A DNA stretch of 64,000 nt from Virgibacillus sp. NKC19-16 (lineage in GTDB: Bacteria > Bacillota > Bacilli > Bacillales > Amphibacillaceae). The translations under genes and the position numbers were made by a program. The first letter of the stretch is position 1. Each line of letters starts with the position of its first letter. The stretch covers positions 1,236,001 to 1,300,000 of the forward strand of contig NZ_CP074373.1 of the NCBI RefSeq assembly GCF_021560035.1. The letters run 5' to 3'. Positions 14,763 through 63,893 of this stretch are shown here, piece after piece. A model generated the notes under the pieces. It searched no databases and was not told where the DNA came from. It worked only from the letters and a program-made list of their open reading frames with translations.

Positions 14763-15785
14763 ATGAAGAAGTTAATCATTTTAATTTGTGCTACTGTATT
14801 AGTAGTGCTTTCTGCCTGTGGGGATTCAGATGGAAATGGAGATTCCGGCTCAGACGAAGCAGGGGGAGAGGGAATTGACACAATTGTATTATCTGATGCT
14901 GGTTGGGACAGCAATCGTGTTCACAATAGTATTGCACAAACGATCATTGAAGAAGGTTATGGCTATGATACAGACGTTACAGCTGGAACAACAGCAGCTA
15001 CGTTTCAAGGTCTTATAGAAGGTGACATTAACGTTTACATGGAAGCATGGACAGATAACATAAAAGAAATTTACACAGAAGCAATTGAAGCAGGGGATAT
15101 TGAAGAGGTTTCTGTTAACTTTGACGATAATAATCAAGGCCTATATGTACCAACATATGTCATTGAGGGTGACGAGGAGCGAGGTATTGAGCCAATGGCA
15201 CCTGATTTACAAACAGTTGAAGATTTAAAGGATTACCCGGAAGTGTTTGAAGACCCTGAAGATCCTGGCAGAGGAAGAGTTGTGAATGCTCCAAGTGGAT
15301 GGGCTGTTCAAGAAGCAATTGATGCGAAATTCGATATCTATGGATTGGACGCGACAATGAATAATTTCATGCCTGGTTCTGATGCTGCGATCGTGGCAGA
15401 TCTTACAGACGCATACAATGCAGGTGAAGCTTGGGTAGGATACTACTGGTCACCAACTGCTGTAACGGCTACGATGGATTTAACTTTACTGGAAGAGCCT
15501 GAATATGATGAAGCAGAATGGGAAGAAACAAAAGCAACAGAATTTCCTCCAAATGATGTTACGGTTGCCGTTCATAAAGATTTGCCGGAGCAAGCACCGG
15601 ATGTCGTAGAGTTTTTGAGTAACTATGAAACGAGCAGCGACCTTACTGAGCAAGCTTTAACATATATGGATGAAAATGATGCTACGCCTGAGGAAGCTGC
15701 AAACTGGTGGATGAACGAACATGAGGATATTTGGACAAGCTGGGTACCTGAGGATGTAGCTGAAACAGTGAAAGAGGCGTTGTAA
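14763..15785 (+). CDS. Substrate-binding lipoprotein of a glycine betaine/choline-type ABC transporter (ProX-like)
   Basis: Extracytoplasmic binding protein anchored at Cys19 (lipobox VLSAC), followed by a Gly/Asp/Ser-rich spacer. The 340-aa, very acidic protein belongs to the OpuAC/ProX superfamily (PF04069 type), with DAGWDSNRVHN, VYMEAWTDNI, NAPSGWAVQEAI and EAWVGYYWSPT. These Trp/Tyr residues are of the kind that form the aromatic cage for quaternary amines. Its layout is nearer E. coli ProX than the two OpuAC-like proteins at 58-60 kb. It is the first gene of an operon with the permease and ATPase below. The exact substrate (betaine, carnitine, choline) cannot be read from the sequence. 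Confidence 0.85.
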   Translation: MKKLIILICATVLVVLSACGDSDGNGDSGSDEAGGEGIDTIVLSDAGWDSNRVHNSIAQTIIEEGYGYDTDVTAGTTAATFQGLIEGDINVYMEAWTDNIKEIYTEAIEAGDIEEVSVNFDDNNQGLYVPTYVIEGDEERGIEPMAPDLQTVEDLKDYPEVFEDPEDPGRGRVVNAPSGWAVQEAIDAKFDIYGLDATMNNFMPGSDAAIVADLTDAYNAGEAWVGYYWSPTAVTATMDLTLLEEPEYDEAEWEETKATEFPPNDVTVAVHKDLPEQAPDVVEFLSNYETSSDLTEQALTYMDENDATPEEAANWWMNEHEDIWTSWVPEDVAETVKEAL

Positions 15786-15792
15786 TAAAATA

Positions 15793-15825
15793 GAAGCAGC
15801 TGGCCGCTTGGTTAGCTGCTTCTTG
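15793..15825 (+). terminator. Intercistronic hairpin between binding protein and permease genes
   Basis: GAAGCAGCT (15793-15801) and AGCTGCTTC (15814-15822) are perfect inverted repeats. The following bases TTGAGGTT are a weak U-tract, so this is likely a partial terminator or a 3'-end stabiliser. It would give more binding protein than membrane subunits. Confidence 0.6.
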
Positions 15826-15859
15826 AGGTTAACAAATTATAAAGAGGTGAAATGGGTTT

Positions 15860-16711
15860 ATGGGGAATTTTCCTGATATACGCACAAATCTAGGTGATTA
15901 TGCAGATCAGATTGTAAGTTTTTTAGATTCATCGTTAGAAGGTTTTTTTGATTTTATATTTTTTATATCATCCCGTACCATTGGAGGAATTGCTGACTTT
16001 TTAACATTGATGCCATGGTGGTTATTTATTATATTTATTATTTTGGTGGGATGGTATTTTAAATCGATATTTTCGGGTATTCTTTATGGCCTTTTTGTAT
16101 TTTTAATAGGAACATTTGGCCTTTGGGAAGATATGATGACAACAATTGCTATTATCGTAACGGCTGTTTTGATTTGTTTATTAATAGGTATTCCTTCAGG
16201 GATATGGATGGCATTTAGTAAACCTGTCTCGAATATACTGCGCCCCATCCTTGATGCAATGCAAACAATGCCAAGTTTCGTTTATCTGATCCCGGCCATT
16301 TTCTTTTTCGGATTAGGTAATGTATCTGCTATTTTTGCAACGTTAATATATGCTGTACCGCCTGTTATCCGCCTGACGGAATTAGCGATACGTGGTGTGG
16401 ACAAGGATGTAATTGAATCAGCTGAGTCATTTGGTTCATCGAAATTGCAAACACTGAGAAAAATTCAGCTCCCGCAAGCACTGCCTACGATTATGGCAGG
16501 GGTTAACCAAACAACAATGATGGCACTGGCAATGGTCGTTATTGCTTCCATGGTAGGAGCTTCAGGTCTAGGGGAGCAAGTACTTGTATCGATTAACCGT
16601 ATTGATATTGCTTTAGGTTTTGAGGCAGGCATTAGTATTGTATTTTTAGCTGTTATCATTGATCGTGTCACGAATGGTATAGCAGATAAATTTCAAAAGC
16701 ATAGGAGGTAA
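15860..16711 (+). CDS. Glycine betaine/proline-type ABC transporter permease (OpuAB/ProW family)
   Basis: 283-aa membrane subunit. It has an N-terminal pair of hydrophobic segments, then the BPD_transp_1 domain (about residues 90-275), with PILDAMQTMPSFVYLIPAIFF and the EAA-like coupling loop around ESAESFGSSKLQTLRKIQLPQA. ATG 15860 follows AGAGGTGA with a 9-nt gap; the ATG at 15852 is in another frame. Preceded by the binding-protein gene and followed 8 bases on by the ATPase gene. It is a clear paralog of the OpuAB at 63.1 kb. Confidence 0.9.
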   Translation: MGNFPDIRTNLGDYADQIVSFLDSSLEGFFDFIFFISSRTIGGIADFLTLMPWWLFIIFIILVGWYFKSIFSGILYGLFVFLIGTFGLWEDMMTTIAIIVTAVLICLLIGIPSGIWMAFSKPVSNILRPILDAMQTMPSFVYLIPAIFFFGLGNVSAIFATLIYAVPPVIRLTELAIRGVDKDVIESAESFGSSKLQTLRKIQLPQALPTIMAGVNQTTMMALAMVVIASMVGASGLGEQVLVSINRIDIALGFEAGISIVFLAVIIDRVTNGIADKFQKHRR

Positions 16712-16719
16712 GCGATCAA

Positions 16720-17928
16720 ATGTCAAAAATTAAGATAGAACATGTATCAAAAATCTTTGGACCAAAACCAAAATCCGTTATCCCGATGATAAAGAGCGGC
16801 AAGACAAAGGAAGAGATTTTAACAGAAACGAATCATACGGTTGGCGTATATGACGCTTCTCTAGAGATCAAGCAAGGAGAAGTGTTTGTAATTATGGGGT
16901 TGTCAGGTAGTGGAAAGTCAACCTTTATCAGATGTTTTAATCTATTAAACAAACCAACAGATGGGTCCATTTATATCGATGATGAAGATATTACGAAATA
17001 CAGTACGGATCAGCTGAAGAAAGTAAGGCAGGAAAAAATAGCAATGGTTTTTCAGCATTTTGGATTATTCAATCATAAAACTATTCTGGCAAATGTGGAG
17101 TATGGTTTAGAAATTCGCAACGTATCGAAAGAGGAGAGGCATAAAATAGCGCTTGAAAATATTGAAAACGTCGGATTAAAAGGCTATGAAAATAAATATC
17201 CTGATGAATTATCCGGTGGGATGCAACAACGTGTTGGGCTAGCGCGGGCTCTGGCAAATGATCCGGAAATACTACTGATGGATGAACCATTTAGTGCACT
17301 CGACCCACTGATTCGCAGGGAAATGCAATTGGAGCTATTGGACATACAAGAGCGATTGCAAAAAACGATTGTTTTCATCACACATGATGTGAATGAAGCA
17401 TTTAAACTAGGTGATCGTGTTGCGGTGATGAAAGATGGTCGTATCGTTCAGGTTGGTACACCGGAAGAGATTATAGAAGCACCGGCAAATGATTATATTT
17501 CCGATTTCATTAAAGATATTGATCGTTCGAAGGTATTTCAAGCAGAGCATGTTATGATTAAGCCGAATGCTCTTGTGTCTATCAAGGATGGCTTAAAGGT
17601 AGCGGTTAAGGAAATGGAAGAAAACGGAATATCAAGTGTGTTCGTTGTCGATCGGGGCCGTCGCTTGCAGGGCATTATAACAATTGATGATGCCATAAAA
17701 GGGGTAAAGGAAAAACAAACATTAGAGGATGTTCTTCTCCATGATGTTACCGTCGTAAAAAGGGACGAGTATGTCAATGAATTAATCCCGAAAGTGCTTG
17801 AATCTAAGTTTCCGCTTGCAGTAGTGAATGACGAGGAGAAAGTAGTCGGATTTGTTTTACGGATTCATGTATTGGCTGGGTTGGTTTCGAGTGACATTGA
17901 AGAGAGTGAAGAATATCATGATGCGTAA
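16720..17928 (+). CDS. Glycine betaine/proline-type ABC transporter ATPase with tandem CBS domains (OpuAA/ProV family)
   Basis: 402-aa ATPase. The Walker A is GLSGSGKST, the signature LSGGMQQRVGLARAL, Walker B ILLMDEPFSALD and the switch His in FITHDVNEA. The C-terminal 120 residues form two CBS motifs (around LKVAVKEMEENGISSVFVVD and LIPKVLESKFPLAVVND). In OpuA-type transporters CBS pairs sense ionic strength and in some cases bind cyclic di-AMP, so this copy may be osmotically gated. ATG after AGGAGG. Last gene of the operon. The order SBP-permease-ATPase is the reverse of the Bacillus opuA order at the right edge of the window. Confidence 0.93.
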   Translation: MSKIKIEHVSKIFGPKPKSVIPMIKSGKTKEEILTETNHTVGVYDASLEIKQGEVFVIMGLSGSGKSTFIRCFNLLNKPTDGSIYIDDEDITKYSTDQLKKVRQEKIAMVFQHFGLFNHKTILANVEYGLEIRNVSKEERHKIALENIENVGLKGYENKYPDELSGGMQQRVGLARALANDPEILLMDEPFSALDPLIRREMQLELLDIQERLQKTIVFITHDVNEAFKLGDRVAVMKDGRIVQVGTPEEIIEAPANDYISDFIKDIDRSKVFQAEHVMIKPNALVSIKDGLKVAVKEMEENGISSVFVVDRGRRLQGIITIDDAIKGVKEKQTLEDVLLHDVTVVKRDEYVNELIPKVLESKFPLAVVNDEEKVVGFVLRIHVLAGLVSSDIEESEEYHDA

Positions 17929-17963
17929 TATATTAGGACTCTTTCTTAATTTTAAGTAACTTG

Positions 17964-54510: not shown

Positions 54511-54560
54511 CAAATAATGATAAACTATTTCTAGACAATATGCAGATGGAGGGACATCCA

Positions 54561-55109
54561 TTGCCAGAGGAAAACGAAGAAAAAAACTGGGAAAAATATG
54601 ATGAAACGATTCAACGATTTATTCAGGTCATCGCAAAAAATATGAATTTGTATGGGATTACACCTTCTGTAGGGCGATTATATGGCGTCTTATATTTTGC
54701 TGATCAGCCAATGACACTGGATGATATGCGAGAAGCATTGGTAATGAGTAAAACAAGTATGTCAACAGGGGTCCGGGCGTTATCCGAGATGAGAATGGTA
54801 GAATCCACGTTTAAGCGAGGGATTCGAAAAGACCTATATCGGTCAGAGGAAGATTGGTACAAATCCTTTACCTCTTTATTTGGTAACCGCTGGCGCCAGC
54901 AAACCGAAACAAATATTGAAGAAGCCGAAGAAACCATAGCTGAGTTAAATGAGCTAATGGCTGATACAGCAGATGAAAAACTAAAAAGTAAAATAGAAGA
55001 TGATTTGGAAAGACTGCATTATGCAAAAAATTATTATGAATGGTTAATGAAGTTAATTAAGGTCATGGAATCCGGAGAGATTTTTGAGTATATTCCAAAA
55101 AACAAATAA
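54561..55109 (+). CDS. GbsR/MarR-type transcriptional regulator (choline/betaine-responsive family)
   Basis: 182-aa regulator with a winged helix (GITPSVGRLYGVLYFADQPMTLDDM, then SKTSMSTGVRALSEMRMV) and a helical C-terminal domain. It is a clear relative of the regulator at 60848-61348: both have LTLDDM.EAL..SKTSMST. B. subtilis GbsR and OpcR, of this family, control betaine synthesis and uptake. TTG 54561 follows GGAGGG with a 7-nt gap; ATG 54540 has no site. It sits between yhaN and yhaM, which are neighbours in B. subtilis, so it looks inserted. Confidence 0.85.
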   Translation: MPEENEEKNWEKYDETIQRFIQVIAKNMNLYGITPSVGRLYGVLYFADQPMTLDDMREALVMSKTSMSTGVRALSEMRMVESTFKRGIRKDLYRSEEDWYKSFTSLFGNRWRQQTETNIEEAEETIAELNELMADTADEKLKSKIEDDLERLHYAKNYYEWLMKLIKVMESGEIFEYIPKNK

Positions 55110-57947: not shown

Positions 57948-58961
57948 TTATTCTCTTGGTACGCCGTCAAGCCATTCATCAACTTGATCAGGGTTATTTT
58001 CAATATATTCCCGGACAACTTCAGCGGGGTCCCGATCTTCCGCATGAACTTTCGGCATCATTTCGTCAATCATCTCATAACTTTCATCATATTGCTCGAG
58101 CACTTTGTAAGCTCTTGGGGCATCTTCTTCCAGACCTTCGCGAGCTACCGTGAAAATCTGGTCGCCATCTCCACCGTAAATTTCTTGTGGATCCTCAAGC
58201 ATTTTCAAATCCAATGTACCGAAAATCCAATGTGGTTGCCAAAGCGGTACAATAATCGGCTCTTCATTTTCAACGGCATCCTGCAGTGTAGTAAGCATCG
58301 CCGCTTCAGAGCTTGATGTCAGCTCCCAATTATCCAAACCGTATGCTTCGAAAGCTTCCTGTGTATTTTCCATGATTCCAGCGCCAGGATCTATTCCGAC
58401 AACCTGCCAATCAACTGCTTCACCGAGCTCTTCATTATCCTTCAAGTCTTCAAGTGAATTCACATCTTCCATGTAACTTGGGACACCCAAAGATAGCGGT
58501 GCCTCATCAAGCACCTGTTTGACTTGAACAATATCCTCCTCATACTGTTCCCAGTACGCTCCGTGCGTTGCTGGGAGCCAAGCGGATGTATGGAAATCGG
58601 CTGAACCATCAGCAACACTGGACCACATCGCCCCAGCCTCTACTTGCGCTAGTTCAACATCGTAGCCGACCATCTCAAGCAAAGCACCCAGCATATGTGT
58701 ACTAACTGTTTCTCTTGCCCAAGCCACGTATGGTTGAGTTAATTCTTCCTGACCTATTTCAGGCCCTTCACTTGTTTCCTCAGAGCCCTCATCGTCAGAG
58801 GCTTCACTGCTTGTTTCCTCGCTGCTATCCCCACCACATGCAGCTAAGAACATCGTAAGGAACAAGACTAAAACTATTAAACCAAATTTGAATTTACGAT
58901 CTTTAAATATTGAAAAAACCCCCTTAAATGATATTATATTTGCATACTTAGCAGGTTCCAC
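57948..58961 (-). CDS. Orphan glycine betaine-binding lipoprotein, permuted OpuAC type; start codon unclear
   Basis: OpuAC-superfamily binding lipoprotein, very acidic. Lobe order is QPYVAWARETV...TSAWLPATHGAYW first, then VVGIDPGAGIM...VPLWQPHW. This is circularly permuted against the neighbour at 59365, but all three cage Trp motifs are kept. The GTG at 58961 gives 337 aa with the lipobox Cys only at residue 42 and a poor site. A perfect AAGGGGG (58925-58919) stands 8 nt before an ATA codon (58910). Starting there puts Cys at residue 25 and gives an N-terminus like the neighbour (FKDRKFKFG). I suspect an ATA start or a mutated ATG. No permease or ATPase is adjacent; it may serve OpuA. Confidence 0.85.
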   Translation of the reverse strand: MEPAKYANIISFKGVFSIFKDRKFKFGLIVLVLFLTMFLAACGGDSSEETSSEASDDEGSEETSEGPEIGQEELTQPYVAWARETVSTHMLGALLEMVGYDVELAQVEAGAMWSSVADGSADFHTSAWLPATHGAYWEQYEEDIVQVKQVLDEAPLSLGVPSYMEDVNSLEDLKDNEELGEAVDWQVVGIDPGAGIMENTQEAFEAYGLDNWELTSSSEAAMLTTLQDAVENEEPIIVPLWQPHWIFGTLDLKMLEDPQEIYGGDGDQIFTVAREGLEEDAPRAYKVLEQYDESYEMIDEMMPKVHAEDRDPAEVVREYIENNPDQVDEWLDGVPRE

Positions 58962-59287
58962 GTCCCTGTTAAGTAAAGTACAACTAGGTAATAGTGCCCA
59001 GTTGCACCAACAAATGACTATTTTTAATCATATCAAATAAGCTGGTATTCTCAAAATGAGTATTTCCAAGATATTGAGTATAAACAATAGTCTAATCAAG
59101 ATAAAGCTTGCTAAATGAACATATTAAACTATTTTCACCATTTTAAAGGTTTTTCGTAAGTATTACAAAAGTAAAAATAATAGAAGTTTGATAAAGTAAA
59201 ACAGAGGAATTCTAAGTAAGATACATATTATATGATTAGTGTATTATCACTTTACAATTTAGTAGAGAATGTAATCGATTTTGGATT
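58962..59287. other. AT-rich divergent intergenic region between the two orphan binding-protein genes
   Basis: About 330 bases with no credible gene on either strand. It must hold the promoter of the minus-strand gene and any shared operator. I find no convincing palindrome or riboswitch here. The plus-strand promoter lies just to the right. Confidence 0.4.
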
Positions 59288-59317
59288 TTGTAATTATAGT
59301 AATGCAAGATGTATACT
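59288..59317 (+). promoter_or_regulatory. Sigma-A-like promoter of the second orphan binding-protein gene
   Basis: TTGTAA (59288-59293), 18-bp spacer, TATACT (59312-59317), 47 bases before the ATG. The layout is the same as the candidate opuA promoter at 61524-61553 (TTGTAA, 18 bp, TATAGT). Confidence 0.6.
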
Positions 59318-59364
59318 AATTAATGGTCTAAACATTCATATATATGTAATCAAGGGGGAGACAC

Positions 59365-60264
59365 ATGTTTAAAAAAATTTTAGGGATAACGTCCGTTTTG
59401 ACTTTATCGATAGTATTAGCAGCTTGTGGAGGAAGTGAAGAAGCTACTGATGAAAATGCTTCTGTTGGCGAAGCGGTCGAATATGAGATCGTTGGAATTG
59501 ACCCAGGGGCTGGTATTATGGGGCAAACGGAGGACGCATTATCTGCGTATGGTCTTGAAGACAACTGGGAACTCAGGGAGAGCTCTGGTGCTGCTATGGC
59601 AACGGAATTAGGCAGCGCAATTGATGAAGAAGAGCCGATTATTGTGACTGGCTGGATCCCTCACTGGAAATTTTTTGAGTATGATCTGAAAATGTTGGAA
59701 GATCCACAAGAGGTTTATGGTGGTGAAGAAAATATAAACACTCTTGTACGTCTTGGTTTAGAAGAAGACTTGCCTGGTGCGTATACATTTTTTGACCAAT
59801 TCCAATGGGAGCCGGATCATCTGCAAGACGTTATGTTGAAAATTGAAGAAGGATTATCAGAACAAGAAGCTGCACAAGAATGGGTTGAAGAAAATGAAGA
59901 CTTGGTTAATTCCTGGGTTGAAGGAGCAGAGTCTGGAAACGGAGCGGAAGTAAGAGTTACGTATGTTGCCTGGGCGGATGTAATTGCTAGTTCAAATGTC
60001 GCCAAATACGTATTGGAAAATGAATTGGATTATCAAGTTGAATTAATTCAAGTGGAACCAGGTCCAATGTTTGCTAGTGTTGCGGACGGAAGTGCGGATG
60101 CAATGATTGGAGCGTGGCTACCTTCAACACATGGGGCTTACTATGAAGAGTATGAAGGAGATTTTGAAGATTTAGGAGTGAACTTGACCGGTACACGGAA
60201 TGGTCTTGTTGTTCCTGAGTATATGGATATTGATTCCATTGAAGATTTAATAGAAGATGAATAA
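59365..60264 (+). CDS. Glycine betaine-binding lipoprotein OpuAC-like (orphan, canonical lobe order)
   Basis: 299-aa lipoprotein, lipobox IVLAAC with Cys21, then an acidic spacer. It has the B. subtilis OpuAC order: VGIDPGAGIM and VTGWIPHW in the first half, then VTYVAWADV, SVADGSAD and IGAWLPSTHGAYY in the second. The three Trp residues match the betaine cage of OpuAC. ATG after GGGGGAG. It stands alone between its promoter and a very strong terminator, so it must use ATPase and permease subunits made elsewhere, probably the opuA genes 1.6 kb away. Betaine or a related osmolyte is the probable ligand. Confidence 0.9.
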   Translation: MFKKILGITSVLTLSIVLAACGGSEEATDENASVGEAVEYEIVGIDPGAGIMGQTEDALSAYGLEDNWELRESSGAAMATELGSAIDEEEPIIVTGWIPHWKFFEYDLKMLEDPQEVYGGEENINTLVRLGLEEDLPGAYTFFDQFQWEPDHLQDVMLKIEEGLSEQEAAQEWVEENEDLVNSWVEGAESGNGAEVRVTYVAWADVIASSNVAKYVLENELDYQVELIQVEPGPMFASVADGSADAMIGAWLPSTHGAYYEEYEGDFEDLGVNLTGTRNGLVVPEYMDIDSIEDLIEDE

Positions 60265-60288
60265 AATAATATAGTAGGTGTGACACCT

Positions 60289-60330
60289 AATGAATCCATT
60301 TTGATAGATTATCAAAATGGATTCATTTTT
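60289..60330 (+). terminator. Very strong terminator
   Basis: 17-bp perfect inverted repeat AATGAATCCATTTTGAT (60289-60305) and ATCAAAATGGATTCATT (60311-60327) around a 5-nt loop, followed by TTT. Confidence 0.9.
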
Positions 60331-60482
60331 AGATATCGCAAAGTTTTTGAATCGTTTTCTCGAAGAAAGAAGGTGATTTTCATTTTATAAATGATTTTTG
60401 CTTTTATTCCTTAAAATTAGTGGTAAAATATGCTTAAATGAAACGAAATTTTTTAAATTGCTATTTGAGGGGGTTTTCGCCA

Positions 60483-60839
60483 TTGAAAACGTTAAATAAT
60501 AATGATACAACGTCCTTTCATTTACAATTACTTTCCACAATCATGGATCTGAATGCGTACCCACTTATTCATCTAATTATAGAACATAATATTACATATA
60601 AAGAGTTTGAGGAAATGATGCATTTGCTGCAAAAGTTAGAAGATCAATTCAACATTCAAAGAGAAGAAGGGTTTCTGGATTTTACATCTTTATTGGTAGA
60701 ATTTGCGGGTATGCTTACGGAAAAGCTTGATCCTAACAATACAATTTACGCACTAAAAAAAGAAGGATATTATCCTTCTTTAATGGCTGAATTCACGCTT
60801 ATCATAGAACGAGAGGAAAAAAGGATGAGACGAGGTTGA
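60483..60839 (+). CDS. yhaI: DUF1878 family protein YhaI
   Basis: 118-aa helical cytosolic protein: FHLQLLSTIMDLNAYPLIHL, EEMMHLLQKLEDQFNIQREEGF, LVEFAGMLTEKLDP and YALKKEGYYPSLMAEF, in the pattern of Bacillus YhaI (DUF1878). TTG 60483 follows GAGGGGG; the ATG at 60438 has no site. In B. subtilis yhaI lies a few genes beyond prsA. Here it is separated from prsA by the two binding-protein genes, which supports insertion of the osmolyte genes into the yha series. Function unknown. Confidence 0.8.
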   Translation: MKTLNNNDTTSFHLQLLSTIMDLNAYPLIHLIIEHNITYKEFEEMMHLLQKLEDQFNIQREEGFLDFTSLLVEFAGMLTEKLDPNNTIYALKKEGYYPSLMAEFTLIIEREEKRMRRG

Positions 60840-60847
60840 TCCTCGAA

Positions 60848-61348
60848 TCAGTCCTCCTCAATTCCTGTTTCCTTCATTTTTCTGAATAAATTTTCTACAA
60901 GGATATGAAATTGCAAAATATCATGCGTACGCTTATCCAGAGTTGTGAGTTCTTCAGATGATTCCTTTTTCTTTTTCTCGTTAATAAGATGTTTATTATC
61001 CTCTAAGGCATCTTTTTGATGTTTCGTAGTATCAAGCCATTTATTAATATAGGAATTCATAAATGTTTTAAATAATTGATTATTGGCTTGATATAAATCC
61101 TTTCGAACCCCTTTTTTCCATACACGTGTAACAAGGTTTAAATCTGATAATGAGCGAATGCTTGTGCTCATGGAAGTTTTGCTTTTACCTAATGCCTCAC
61201 TCATATCATCTAAGGTTAATGGTTCTTCAGATAAGTATAAATAAGCAAACAAACGCGCTTCTACGGGACTTAAACCAAAGTTTCCAACTGTTTTTGAGAA
61301 TTCGAGCATTAGATTATCTCTAATTTCTTCATTGTTAGGGATGTTCAT
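60848..61348 (-). CDS. GbsR/MarR-type regulator divergent from opuA (OpuAR-like)
   Basis: 166-aa regulator with a winged helix (GLSPVEARLFAYLYLSEEPLTLDDMSEAL, then KSKTSMSTSIRSLSDLNLV) and a Lys/Glu-rich helical C-terminal part. Belongs to the GbsR family that represses betaine uptake and synthesis genes and responds to choline or related ligands. It reads away from the opuA operon, the usual place for a local regulator. ATG after AGGAGG. Ends 8 bases from the yhaI stop. A paralog lies at 54561-55109. Confidence 0.88.
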   Translation of the reverse strand: MNIPNNEEIRDNLMLEFSKTVGNFGLSPVEARLFAYLYLSEEPLTLDDMSEALGKSKTSMSTSIRSLSDLNLVTRVWKKGVRKDLYQANNQLFKTFMNSYINKWLDTTKHQKDALEDNKHLINEKKKKESSEELTTLDKRTHDILQFHILVENLFRKMKETGIEED

Positions 61349-61844: not shown

Positions 61845-63050
61845 ATGAGTAAAATAAAGGTAGACCGATTAACGAAAATTTTCGGCAGGCGTCCGAAACA
61901 AGCTGTCAAATACCTAGATGAAAATAAATCAAAGGATGAAATTCTGGAGTTAACTGGGATGACAGTGGGTGTTAATCAAGCTACATTCGATGTTCAGGAT
62001 GGCGAAGTCTTTGTGATCATGGGCCTATCTGGCAGTGGTAAATCTACACTCGTTCGTATGCTGAACCGTTTGATCGAGCCAACCTCTGGTGATGTTTGGT
62101 TTGATGATGAAAACATAACAGAAATGAATAAGGAGCAACTTCGAGAAGTTCGAAGGAAAAAAATGAGCATGGTTTTCCAGAACTTTGCTTTGTTGCCGCA
62201 TAAATCGATTCTTAAGAACGCTGAATACGGTTTGGAAATCCAGGGAATTGATAAAGAGGAACGGGAAAAGAAGGCTCGTGAAGCGCTTGAACTAGTTGGT
62301 CTCGGCGGCTATTTGGAGAAGTATCCAAATGAGCTTTCCGGCGGTATGCAACAGCGGGTCGGTCTGGCAAGAGCTCTAGCCAATGATCCGGAAATCCTTC
62401 TCATGGACGAGGCGTTCAGTGCACTGGATCCGTTAATCCGAAAAGATATGCAGGATGAATTGATGGATTTGCAGCAATCCGTACAAAAAACCATCATCTT
62501 TATTACACACGATTTGGATGAAGCACTTCGGATCGGTGACAGGATTGCCCTGATGAAAGATGGTGCCATTGTACAGATTGGTACAGCCGAAGAGATTTTA
62601 ATGGATCCTGCCGATGATTATGTTAGTCGCTTCGTTCAAGATGTCAATCTTGCCAATGTATTCACAGCGAGTCATGTGATGAAGCGTGCTGAAACAGTGA
62701 CGGTTGACAGGGGCCCAAATGTTGCCCTCAGGTTAATGAAAGAAAATGGTGTCTCCACGATTTATGTGGTTGATAAAAAACAGAAGTTGCTCGGTTATGT
62801 AACGGCAGACCAGGCAGCATCTGCAGCTAAAGAAAGTAAAGGCCTGGAAGATATTCTTACATCCGATATCCCGACTGTAAACCCGGACACATTACTTGGT
62901 GATATATTTGAACCGATGGCTGATGACAAAGCGCCACTGTCCGTTGTAGATGATTCGGGCAAGTTGGTTGGGATTGTTGTCAGAGGGGCAATTATCGGTG
63001 CTCTCGCCGGGGATGATAAGGTATTGAACGGAAATGGGGGTGAAGAATAA
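61845..63050 (+). CDS. opuAA: Glycine betaine ABC transporter ATPase OpuAA with tandem CBS domains
   Basis: 401-aa ATPase of the OpuA osmoprotectant importer. Walker A is GLSGSGKST, the signature LSGGMQQRVGLARAL and the H-loop FITHDLDEA. Walker B reads ILLMDEAFSALD, with Ala where the paralog at 16.7 kb has Pro. The C-terminal CBS pair lies at about residues 280-395 (VALRLMKENGVSTIYVVD and FEPMADDKAPLSVVDD), the ionic-strength or nucleotide-sensing module of the family. ATG after AGTGAGGTGA. It abuts opuAB with no gap. Confidence 0.95.
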   Translation: MSKIKVDRLTKIFGRRPKQAVKYLDENKSKDEILELTGMTVGVNQATFDVQDGEVFVIMGLSGSGKSTLVRMLNRLIEPTSGDVWFDDENITEMNKEQLREVRRKKMSMVFQNFALLPHKSILKNAEYGLEIQGIDKEEREKKAREALELVGLGGYLEKYPNELSGGMQQRVGLARALANDPEILLMDEAFSALDPLIRKDMQDELMDLQQSVQKTIIFITHDLDEALRIGDRIALMKDGAIVQIGTAEEILMDPADDYVSRFVQDVNLANVFTASHVMKRAETVTVDRGPNVALRLMKENGVSTIYVVDKKQKLLGYVTADQAASAAKESKGLEDILTSDIPTVNPDTLLGDIFEPMADDKAPLSVVDDSGKLVGIVVRGAIIGALAGDDKVLNGNGGEE

Positions 63051-63893
63051 ATGGATGAAAGAGCAGGAACATTTCTCCCCAAACTTCCGTTAGCAGAATG
63101 GGTGGAAGCATTTGTTGACTTTTTGACGTCTTCGTTCGGGGCAGTATTTGATGCTATCACTGCAGTAATTGGATTCATTACGGAGAATTTTGTAGTAGTG
63201 CTTGAGTTAGTCCCACCGATTTTGCTAATTGTAGTTGTAGCACTTCTGGCATGGTGGATTGTAAATTGGAAACTTGGACTTTTTGCACTTGTTGGTCTTG
63301 GCCTTATCAACAATCTTGGCTATTGGCCGGAAACACTGGAGACGGTAGCACTTGTTATTGTCTCGGTTGTCGCGTCGATGATTATCGGAATTCCGGTTGG
63401 TATTTGGATGTCTCAGAAAAAATCCGTCGAGACGGTGATTACACCGATTCTGGATTTCATGCAGACGATGCCAGCATTTGTTTATTTGATTCCGGCGGTC
63501 GTCTTCTTCAGCCTTGGCATGGTGCCTGGTGTTGTAGCTACTATTATATTCTCCATGCCGCCTACTGTAAGGCTCACAAACCTCGGTATCCGGCAGGTGG
63601 ATCAGGAACTTATTGAAGCATCCAATGCATTTGGTTCATCAACCGGTCAGAGACTGGGGAAAGTGCAAATACCACTTGCTATGCCATCAATCATGGCAGG
63701 TATTAACCAGACAATCATGCTTTCACTATCGATGGTTGTCATCGCTTCAATGGTTGGGGCTCCCGGTCTTGGTACAGTTGTATACAGAGCTGTTACACAG
63801 GTTGCGATCGGACCAGGATTTGAAGGTGGCCTGTCCCTTGTTATCGTTGCGATGTTACTTGACCGCATTACAAAAGGGGCAGTTAAAAATTAA
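63051..63893 (+). CDS. opuAB: Glycine betaine ABC transporter permease OpuAB
   Basis: 280-aa membrane subunit with an N-terminal pre-domain (LPLAEWVEAFVDFLTSSFG), and then the permease core with PILDFMQTMPAFVYLIPAVVFFS and the coupling loop EASNAFGSSTGQRLGKVQIPLA. ATG directly follows the opuAA stop (TAA ATG); the site GGGGGTGAAG lies in the end of opuAA. Forms OpuA with the ATPase and the lipoprotein downstream. Confidence 0.95.
   Translation: MDERAGTFLPKLPLAEWVEAFVDFLTSSFGAVFDAITAVIGFITENFVVVLELVPPILLIVVVALLAWWIVNWKLGLFALVGLGLINNLGYWPETLETVALVIVSVVASMIIGIPVGIWMSQKKSVETVITPILDFMQTMPAFVYLIPAVVFFSLGMVPGVVATIIFSMPPTVRLTNLGIRQVDQELIEASNAFGSSTGQRLGKVQIPLAMPSIMAGINQTIMLSLSMVVIASMVGAPGLGTVVYRAVTQVAIGPGFEGGLSLVIVAMLLDRITKGAVKN

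Follow-up and report, generated by a model that had tools for sequence, protein, structure and literature searches.

Two neighbouring, divergently transcribed genes of Virgibacillus sp. NKC19-16 encode betaine-binding proteins of one family in which the two lobes follow each other in opposite orders, and the question raised by this locus is whether one gene was permuted out of the other on the spot or whether two types of older standing have come to lie side by side. The stretch of DNA analysed (referred to below as the window) comprises 64,000 nt (GCF_021560035.1, NZ_CP074373.1, positions 1,236,001–1,300,000, forward strand). Both open reading frames named in a preliminary description of this DNA were confirmed (57948–58961 on the minus strand, 59365–60264 on the plus strand), and the gene order is prsA, the divergent pair of substrate-binding protein (SBP) genes, yhaI (DUF1878), a GbsR/OpuAR-like regulator, opuAA, opuAB and a third SBP gene, which is linear. 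The features referred to in the text are:

57948..58961, minus strand: linear betaine-binding protein, predicted lipoprotein (lobe A then lobe B), OpuAC family PF04069, 'AB1' clade; no transporter genes in its own unit
58431..58745, minus strand: lobe A of the linear protein (YVAW ... SAWLPATH; two cage tryptophans and the carboxylate histidine), by lobe HMM
57957..58433, minus strand: lobe B of the linear protein (GIDPGAGIM ... LWQPHW; third cage tryptophan), by lobe HMM
59365..60264, plus strand: permuted betaine-binding protein, predicted lipoprotein (lobe B then lobe A), Bacillus subtilis OpuAC topology; no transporter genes in its own unit
59458..59940, plus strand: lobe B of the permuted protein (GIDPGAGIM ... 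GWIPHW), by lobe HMM
59944..60261, plus strand: lobe A of the permuted protein (YVAW ... GAWLPSTH), by lobe HMM
59160..60352, no strand: segment with the permuted gene and about 200 bp upstream, missing in congener G002 (167 bp there) and kept in congener G001
60438..60839, plus strand: DUF1878 protein (YhaI), syntenic marker of the locus
60848..61348, minus strand: GbsR/OpuAR-like regulator of the opuA operon, assigned by synteny and similarity
61845..63050, plus strand: opuAA, ATPase with CBS domains, of the complete opuA operon
63051..63893, plus strand: opuAB, permease; the operon's own linear SBP gene lies beyond the window end (L013:3980-4948)

The preliminary description had called both genes of the pair orphan, which holds for their own units but not for the neighbourhood, where the full opuA operon (61845–63893 plus the linear SBP gene) starts 1.6 kb from the pair. 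A profile search found 10 PF04069 binding proteins in the Virgibacillus genome, four with OpuA-, OpuC- or ProX-type transporter genes and six without any beside them. Elsewhere in the window a further SBP, ProX-like, is encoded together with permease and ATPase genes of its own (14763–17929), and two GbsR/CudC-like regulators share one locus (54540–55109 and 60848–61348), one of which sits between yhaN and yhaM, an arrangement conserved in many genomes of the family. In congener G001, opuAA is split into two overlapping ORFs (L071:11750-12996; a possible frameshift or sequencing error). A promoter scan of the intergenic region gave 8 matches against 6.6 expected from shuffles, with nothing above the shuffles.

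Lobe order and ligand of the two proteins

Both proteins belong to the PF04069 family (210.7 and 210.6 bits, curated cut-off 21.2). The profile runs along the minus-strand protein as a single collinear stretch (profile 7–256) and matches the plus-strand protein in two swapped stretches (profile 114–257 at residues 33–176, then the 2–111 part). Likewise the plus-strand protein can be aligned with B. subtilis OpuAC (2b4l) in a single run of 267 residues (E 3e-78), and the minus-strand protein meets it in two swapped stretches; the L. lactis OpuA substrate-binding domain (SBD; 3l6g) is collinear with the minus-strand protein and swapped relative to the plus-strand protein. The proposal that the two neighbours are circular permutations of each other therefore stands: they are 50% identical over 261 positions only when the lobes of one are swapped. 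Aligned half by half, lobe A matches lobe A (49%, E 1e-27) and lobe B matches lobe B (51%, E 3e-50), and no cross-lobe match of A with B in this comparison was better than chance. For the whole proteins the permuted register scores 592 (130/261 identical) and the linear register 399 (83/170 identical), against a mean of 27 and a maximum of 60 in 200 shuffles. Structure models made without deep alignments were too poor to use (mean pLDDT 41 and 36), and the topology of both proteins is settled by sequence because solved homologues exist.

The plus-strand protein thus has the B-A order, with the cut in the interlobe linker, and resembles B. subtilis OpuAC (the permuted glycine/proline betaine-binding lipoprotein of OpuA) in lobe order and cage motifs, but unlike opuAC its gene stands alone, without opuAA-opuAB in its unit; it lies between the divergent SBP gene and yhaI, and the opuA operon close by includes a linear SBP of its own. 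The minus-strand protein has the A-B order and shares lobe order and cage with the L. lactis SBD (3l6g / 7ahc; linear, permease-fused). The two do not form one linear clade by descent, since the L. lactis SBD belongs to a clade, AB2, nested among permuted proteins, whereas the minus-strand protein belongs to AB1, which is separate in the trees. GbsU of Halobacillus and Virgibacillus (PMC6207618), whose gene adjoins those for glycine betaine synthesis, is likewise linear, a lone lipoprotein that has the betaine cage but no neighbouring transporter genes. By synteny, however, the minus-strand gene is not GbsU, as it does not lie beside gbsR-gbsAB; the Virgibacillus genome has its own gbsR-SBP-betB-like locus (L015), the SBP of which branches apart from the minus-strand protein. 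GbsR-type regulation of opuA has been described (PMC6207618), as have lone binding proteins (GbsU).

That all three tryptophan motifs of the cage are retained, as originally claimed, was verified by alignment to 2b4l and 3l6g, and the motif with the carboxylate histidine is likewise kept in each (YVAW, AWLPxTH and WxPHW in both proteins). Because this cage holds the trimethylammonium group, both proteins are most likely betaine binders, predicted lipoproteins with glycine betaine or proline betaine as ligand. It is possible, if rather doubtful, that the two serve different ligands (e.g. betaine and choline, carnitine or a catabolised betaine) instead of one shared import system: they have no common operon, and orthologues of the permuted gene adjoin an SSF symporter (L102) and lie near a Rieske oxygenase with VanA_C (L103), but the cage motifs of the two are identical and both fall far below the cut-off of the choline-binding model (ChoX, TIGR03414; 139.9 and 123.1 bits against 379), so that a choline-binding identity was rejected for both. 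The Salinibacillus orthologue near the Rieske/VanA_C oxygenase is at L103:5723-6757. The Virgibacillus genome has a second permuted SBP (G000:2956124-2957023) with an altered cage region (AWLPVGAASYY) and no transporter genes beside it; it lies beside a divergent cluster of Rieske-type ferredoxin, ferredoxin reductase, aldehyde dehydrogenase and amidohydrolase genes (L014:1030-7024), an arrangement also present in G001 and G002, and it could supply a quaternary amine for catabolism.

We suggest that both SBPs of the pair would feed the neighbouring OpuA in trans, besides the operon's own SBP, and perhaps other Opu permeases too. Either topology could dock, as the folded proteins should be the same, and docking of the plus-strand protein is plausible because, in the permease tree, the window permease groups most closely with those that have a permuted SBP of their own (96/80).

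Origin of the divergent pair

The binding proteins, from genomes sampled within the class Bacilli, were cut into lobes and set in one register, and trees were built for lobe A, lobe B and both concatenated. In all three, each window protein falls with high support in a separate clade of a single topology. The clade of the plus-strand protein is permuted throughout and contains proteins of Lentibacillus jeotgali, Lentibacillus sp. CBA3610, Salinibacillus xinjiangensis, congener G001 and G015; identity is 79–82% to the first three (the close relatives in a scan of named genomes) and 76% to G001 and G015. Its orthologues in L. jeotgali, CBA3610, Salinibacillus and G015 lie at unrelated loci. The minus-strand protein is in the linear-only clade AB1 together with the SBP of the adjacent opuA operon, which is its nearest paralogue (52% identity).

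These results bear directly on the two origins originally envisaged. Duplication with permutation in place is not borne out by the lobe trees. A history in which the pair arose at the window by duplication, inversion and permutation of one copy is suggested by the adjacency and divergent orientation of the genes and by the roughly 50% identity of each lobe, but it is refuted by the lobe trees, which separate the two proteins with high support. The resemblance of the plus-strand lobes to others also speaks against it: they are 76–82% identical to those of permuted orthologues elsewhere, several of them at other loci, and 63% identical to an operonic permuted SBP of another family, against 50% to the neighbour. 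We regard such an origin as extremely improbable.

The other origin, acquisition of a second type, fits the distribution of the plus-strand gene. The divergent pair recurs in G001. In G002 the linear gene and the opuA operon are present but the permuted gene is missing, the difference being a clean indel; of three species sampled in the genus, two thus carry the permuted gene at this position, flanked by the linear gene and yhaI. As the minus-strand protein is more similar to that of G002 (91%) than to that of G001 (84%), G002 is the closer to the window genome, and the most economical history is that the permuted gene arrived and was later lost from G002. The minus-strand gene is a paralogue of the binding-protein gene of the adjacent opuA operon, and the plus-strand gene belongs to the B. 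subtilis OpuAC-type branch and has been relocated; because each belongs to its own old lineage, the swap did not occur at the window. The two neighbours are thus very probably paralogues, both of them betaine-binding lipoproteins anchored in the membrane, that stem from separate, old topological branches of OpuAC and were juxtaposed by relocation, within a wider family in which lobe order is labile and has changed at least twice.

Lobe order in the opuA operon

Evidence that lobe order is labile came from a second linear clade, AB2, which consists of the L. lactis SBD and several SBPs of opuA operons and which fell inside the permuted clade in the first tree. AB2 groups with permuted operon SBPs in the separate lobe trees (83/85 for lobe A, 100/98 for lobe B), and in a tree of 114 proteins it is nested within sets supported at 99/98, 100/96 and 99/92. 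A single origin of the B-A order, with all permuted proteins held together, was rejected by the AU test in three data sets (dlnL 72, p 5e-5; dlnL 82, p 0.0015; dlnL 44, p 4e-8); the first value is optimistic because the group had been noticed on that tree before testing, and the rejection was repeated in the two later data sets, to which sequences had been added. Permuted proteins and AB2 as one clade were not rejected (p 0.21), so two order changes suffice. At least two changes of lobe order are required, and the simplest course begins with A-B, turns to B-A and ends with A-B again.

Both orders are also found in one position of a locus that is conserved across the family (prsA - yhaI - gbsR - opuAA - opuAB - SBP - (SBP) - yhaH - hit). 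The first SBP slot of this operon holds a B-A gene in some species and an A-B gene in others, even within one genus: in genus g21 a B-A gene is followed by a second B-A gene in G253, G261, G283, G291 and G295, and a single A-B gene is present in G225, G245, G276 and G287. Elsewhere an A-B gene in slot 1 precedes a B-A gene in slot 2 (G006, G213, G219, G240 and G019) or two such genes (G215). The 15 B-A and 26 A-B proteins of slot 1 fall together in one clade (99/96), and slot-2 proteins with their stand-alone relatives form another, all permuted (22 rows, 100/99). Nucleotide alignments of the operon are collinear through opuAB (71–79% identity); comparing G225 and G215 with G253, and G240 with G261, the match includes the leader peptide, beyond which each lobe is found in the swapped position at 72–77% nucleotide identity. 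The leader peptides of slot 1 are alike in the two orders (e.g. MFKRNWKRLGIAAGLSLSLFAAGC for A-B and MLKHNWKRLGLTLGLSLTLFAAGC for B-A). In the permease tree, A-B and B-A slot-1 operons are mixed within a single clade (100/100), and since the slot-1 genes do not sort with their permeases, this suggests that exchange of alleles between species, and not only permutation in situ, moved slot-1 genes. Permuted slot-1 proteins as one clade were not rejected by the AU test (p 0.195), so the direction of change inside slot 1 is supported by the nesting and not by that test. Judging by these comparisons, a change of lobe order in place did happen, not at the window but in opuA operons of related genera.

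The interlobe linker of the AB2 proteins is about six residues shorter than that of AB1, and lobe A is preceded by a segment (GKEIEL) that resembles the B-to-A linker of the permuted form. Over seven residues this segment is 55% identical to slot-1 permuted linkers, as against 16–29% for the linear clades AB1, AB1b, AB0 and ABout and 34% for AB3, a similarity that is partly expected because lobe A of AB2 and the slot-1 permuted proteins are related. AB2 might instead be an unchanged relic of the ancestral order, around which B-A arose several times independently, and branching among the deeper permuted groups is indeed poorly resolved in places. We consider this very unlikely: it needs many independent changes from A-B to B-A, all with one cut point in the interlobe linker, in place of two changes, and the B-A subclades do have a common cut point where different ones would be expected; AB2 is nested at three successive supported levels; and it carries the B-A-like linker before lobe A. 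Nor does recombination seem a likely source of the tree position of AB2, whether as a chimera or by conversion of its lobes from an adjacent permuted copy. A-B and B-A copies do occur in tandem in several genomes, but both AB2 lobes cluster with slot-1 permuted proteins rather than with the slot-2 type of the tandem, and the AB2 leader peptide also matches slot 1. A chimera of slot-1 lobe A with slot-2 lobe B was unsupported, both lobes being slot-1-like.

Circular permutation in this family is, in our judgement, probably reversible: an OpuA SBP that had passed from A-B to B-A would have reverted to A-B in a single slot of a conserved operon, and L. lactis OpuA would descend from the re-linearised form. 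Further returns may include AB3 (Paenibacillus-type) and the AB1 clade of the window, and the permeases of both nest among those of permuted systems. AB3 (L111, L113, L115, L116 and L118) is a further linear clade whose permeases group with Paenibacillus-like permuted systems, and it possibly represents a second return to A-B.

Possible route of the proposed return and wider meaning

Duplication followed by deletion is the general route proposed for circular permutation, and tandem permuted copies, present in the opuA operon of g21 and of G008, are a plausible substrate of the return step. In a B-A-B-A chain the two inner lobes make up an A-B unit, so that loss of the outer lobes from such a tandem would restore A-B. 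As slot 1, and not slot 2, is what AB2 resembles in either lobe, the tandem at the return step would have paired slot 1 with itself. In G008 the second permuted copy is frameshifted near the end of lobe B (L082:7762-8732). Fusions of the permease with B-A-B-A in one chain of 862–868 residues occur in several Paenibacillus-like genomes, a lineage different from that of the re-linearised proteins. OpuAB fused to two permuted SBDs is found at L122-L124 and L126 (genomes G067, G172, G141 and G183) and likewise in G116, G130 and G162; we found no published description of a two-SBD B-A-B-A OpuA chain.

The preliminary description was right that permuted forms of this superfamily are already known. 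The CPSARST paper (PMC2395249), in the part available, reports permuted glycine betaine-binding proteins, comparing 2b4l with the ProX structures 1r9l and 1sw1; this is the same phenomenon as at the window, but seen between distant structures, and that part of the paper describes neither reversal of the order nor switching within one slot. The B. subtilis and L. lactis OpuAC proteins have been compared structurally (44% identical, with nearly the same site; PMC2861598), and a text search of that article found no mention of permutation. No report of a repeated or reversed permutation was found in the literature searched, outside which most subscription papers fall.

The pair in the window is a new instance of known families, and what is new is the switching of order in the same slot. 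Natural circular permutation is usually treated as rare and one-way and is inferred between distant proteins. Here both orders occupy one operon slot in species of one genus, at about 73–75% DNA identity per lobe, and together with the tandem and fused B-A-B-A copies this makes the steps of a permutation readable from living genomes. The same steps are directly testable in a transporter with an available structure and assays, and a natural pair is thereby at hand for asking whether a permease cares about the threading of its binding protein.
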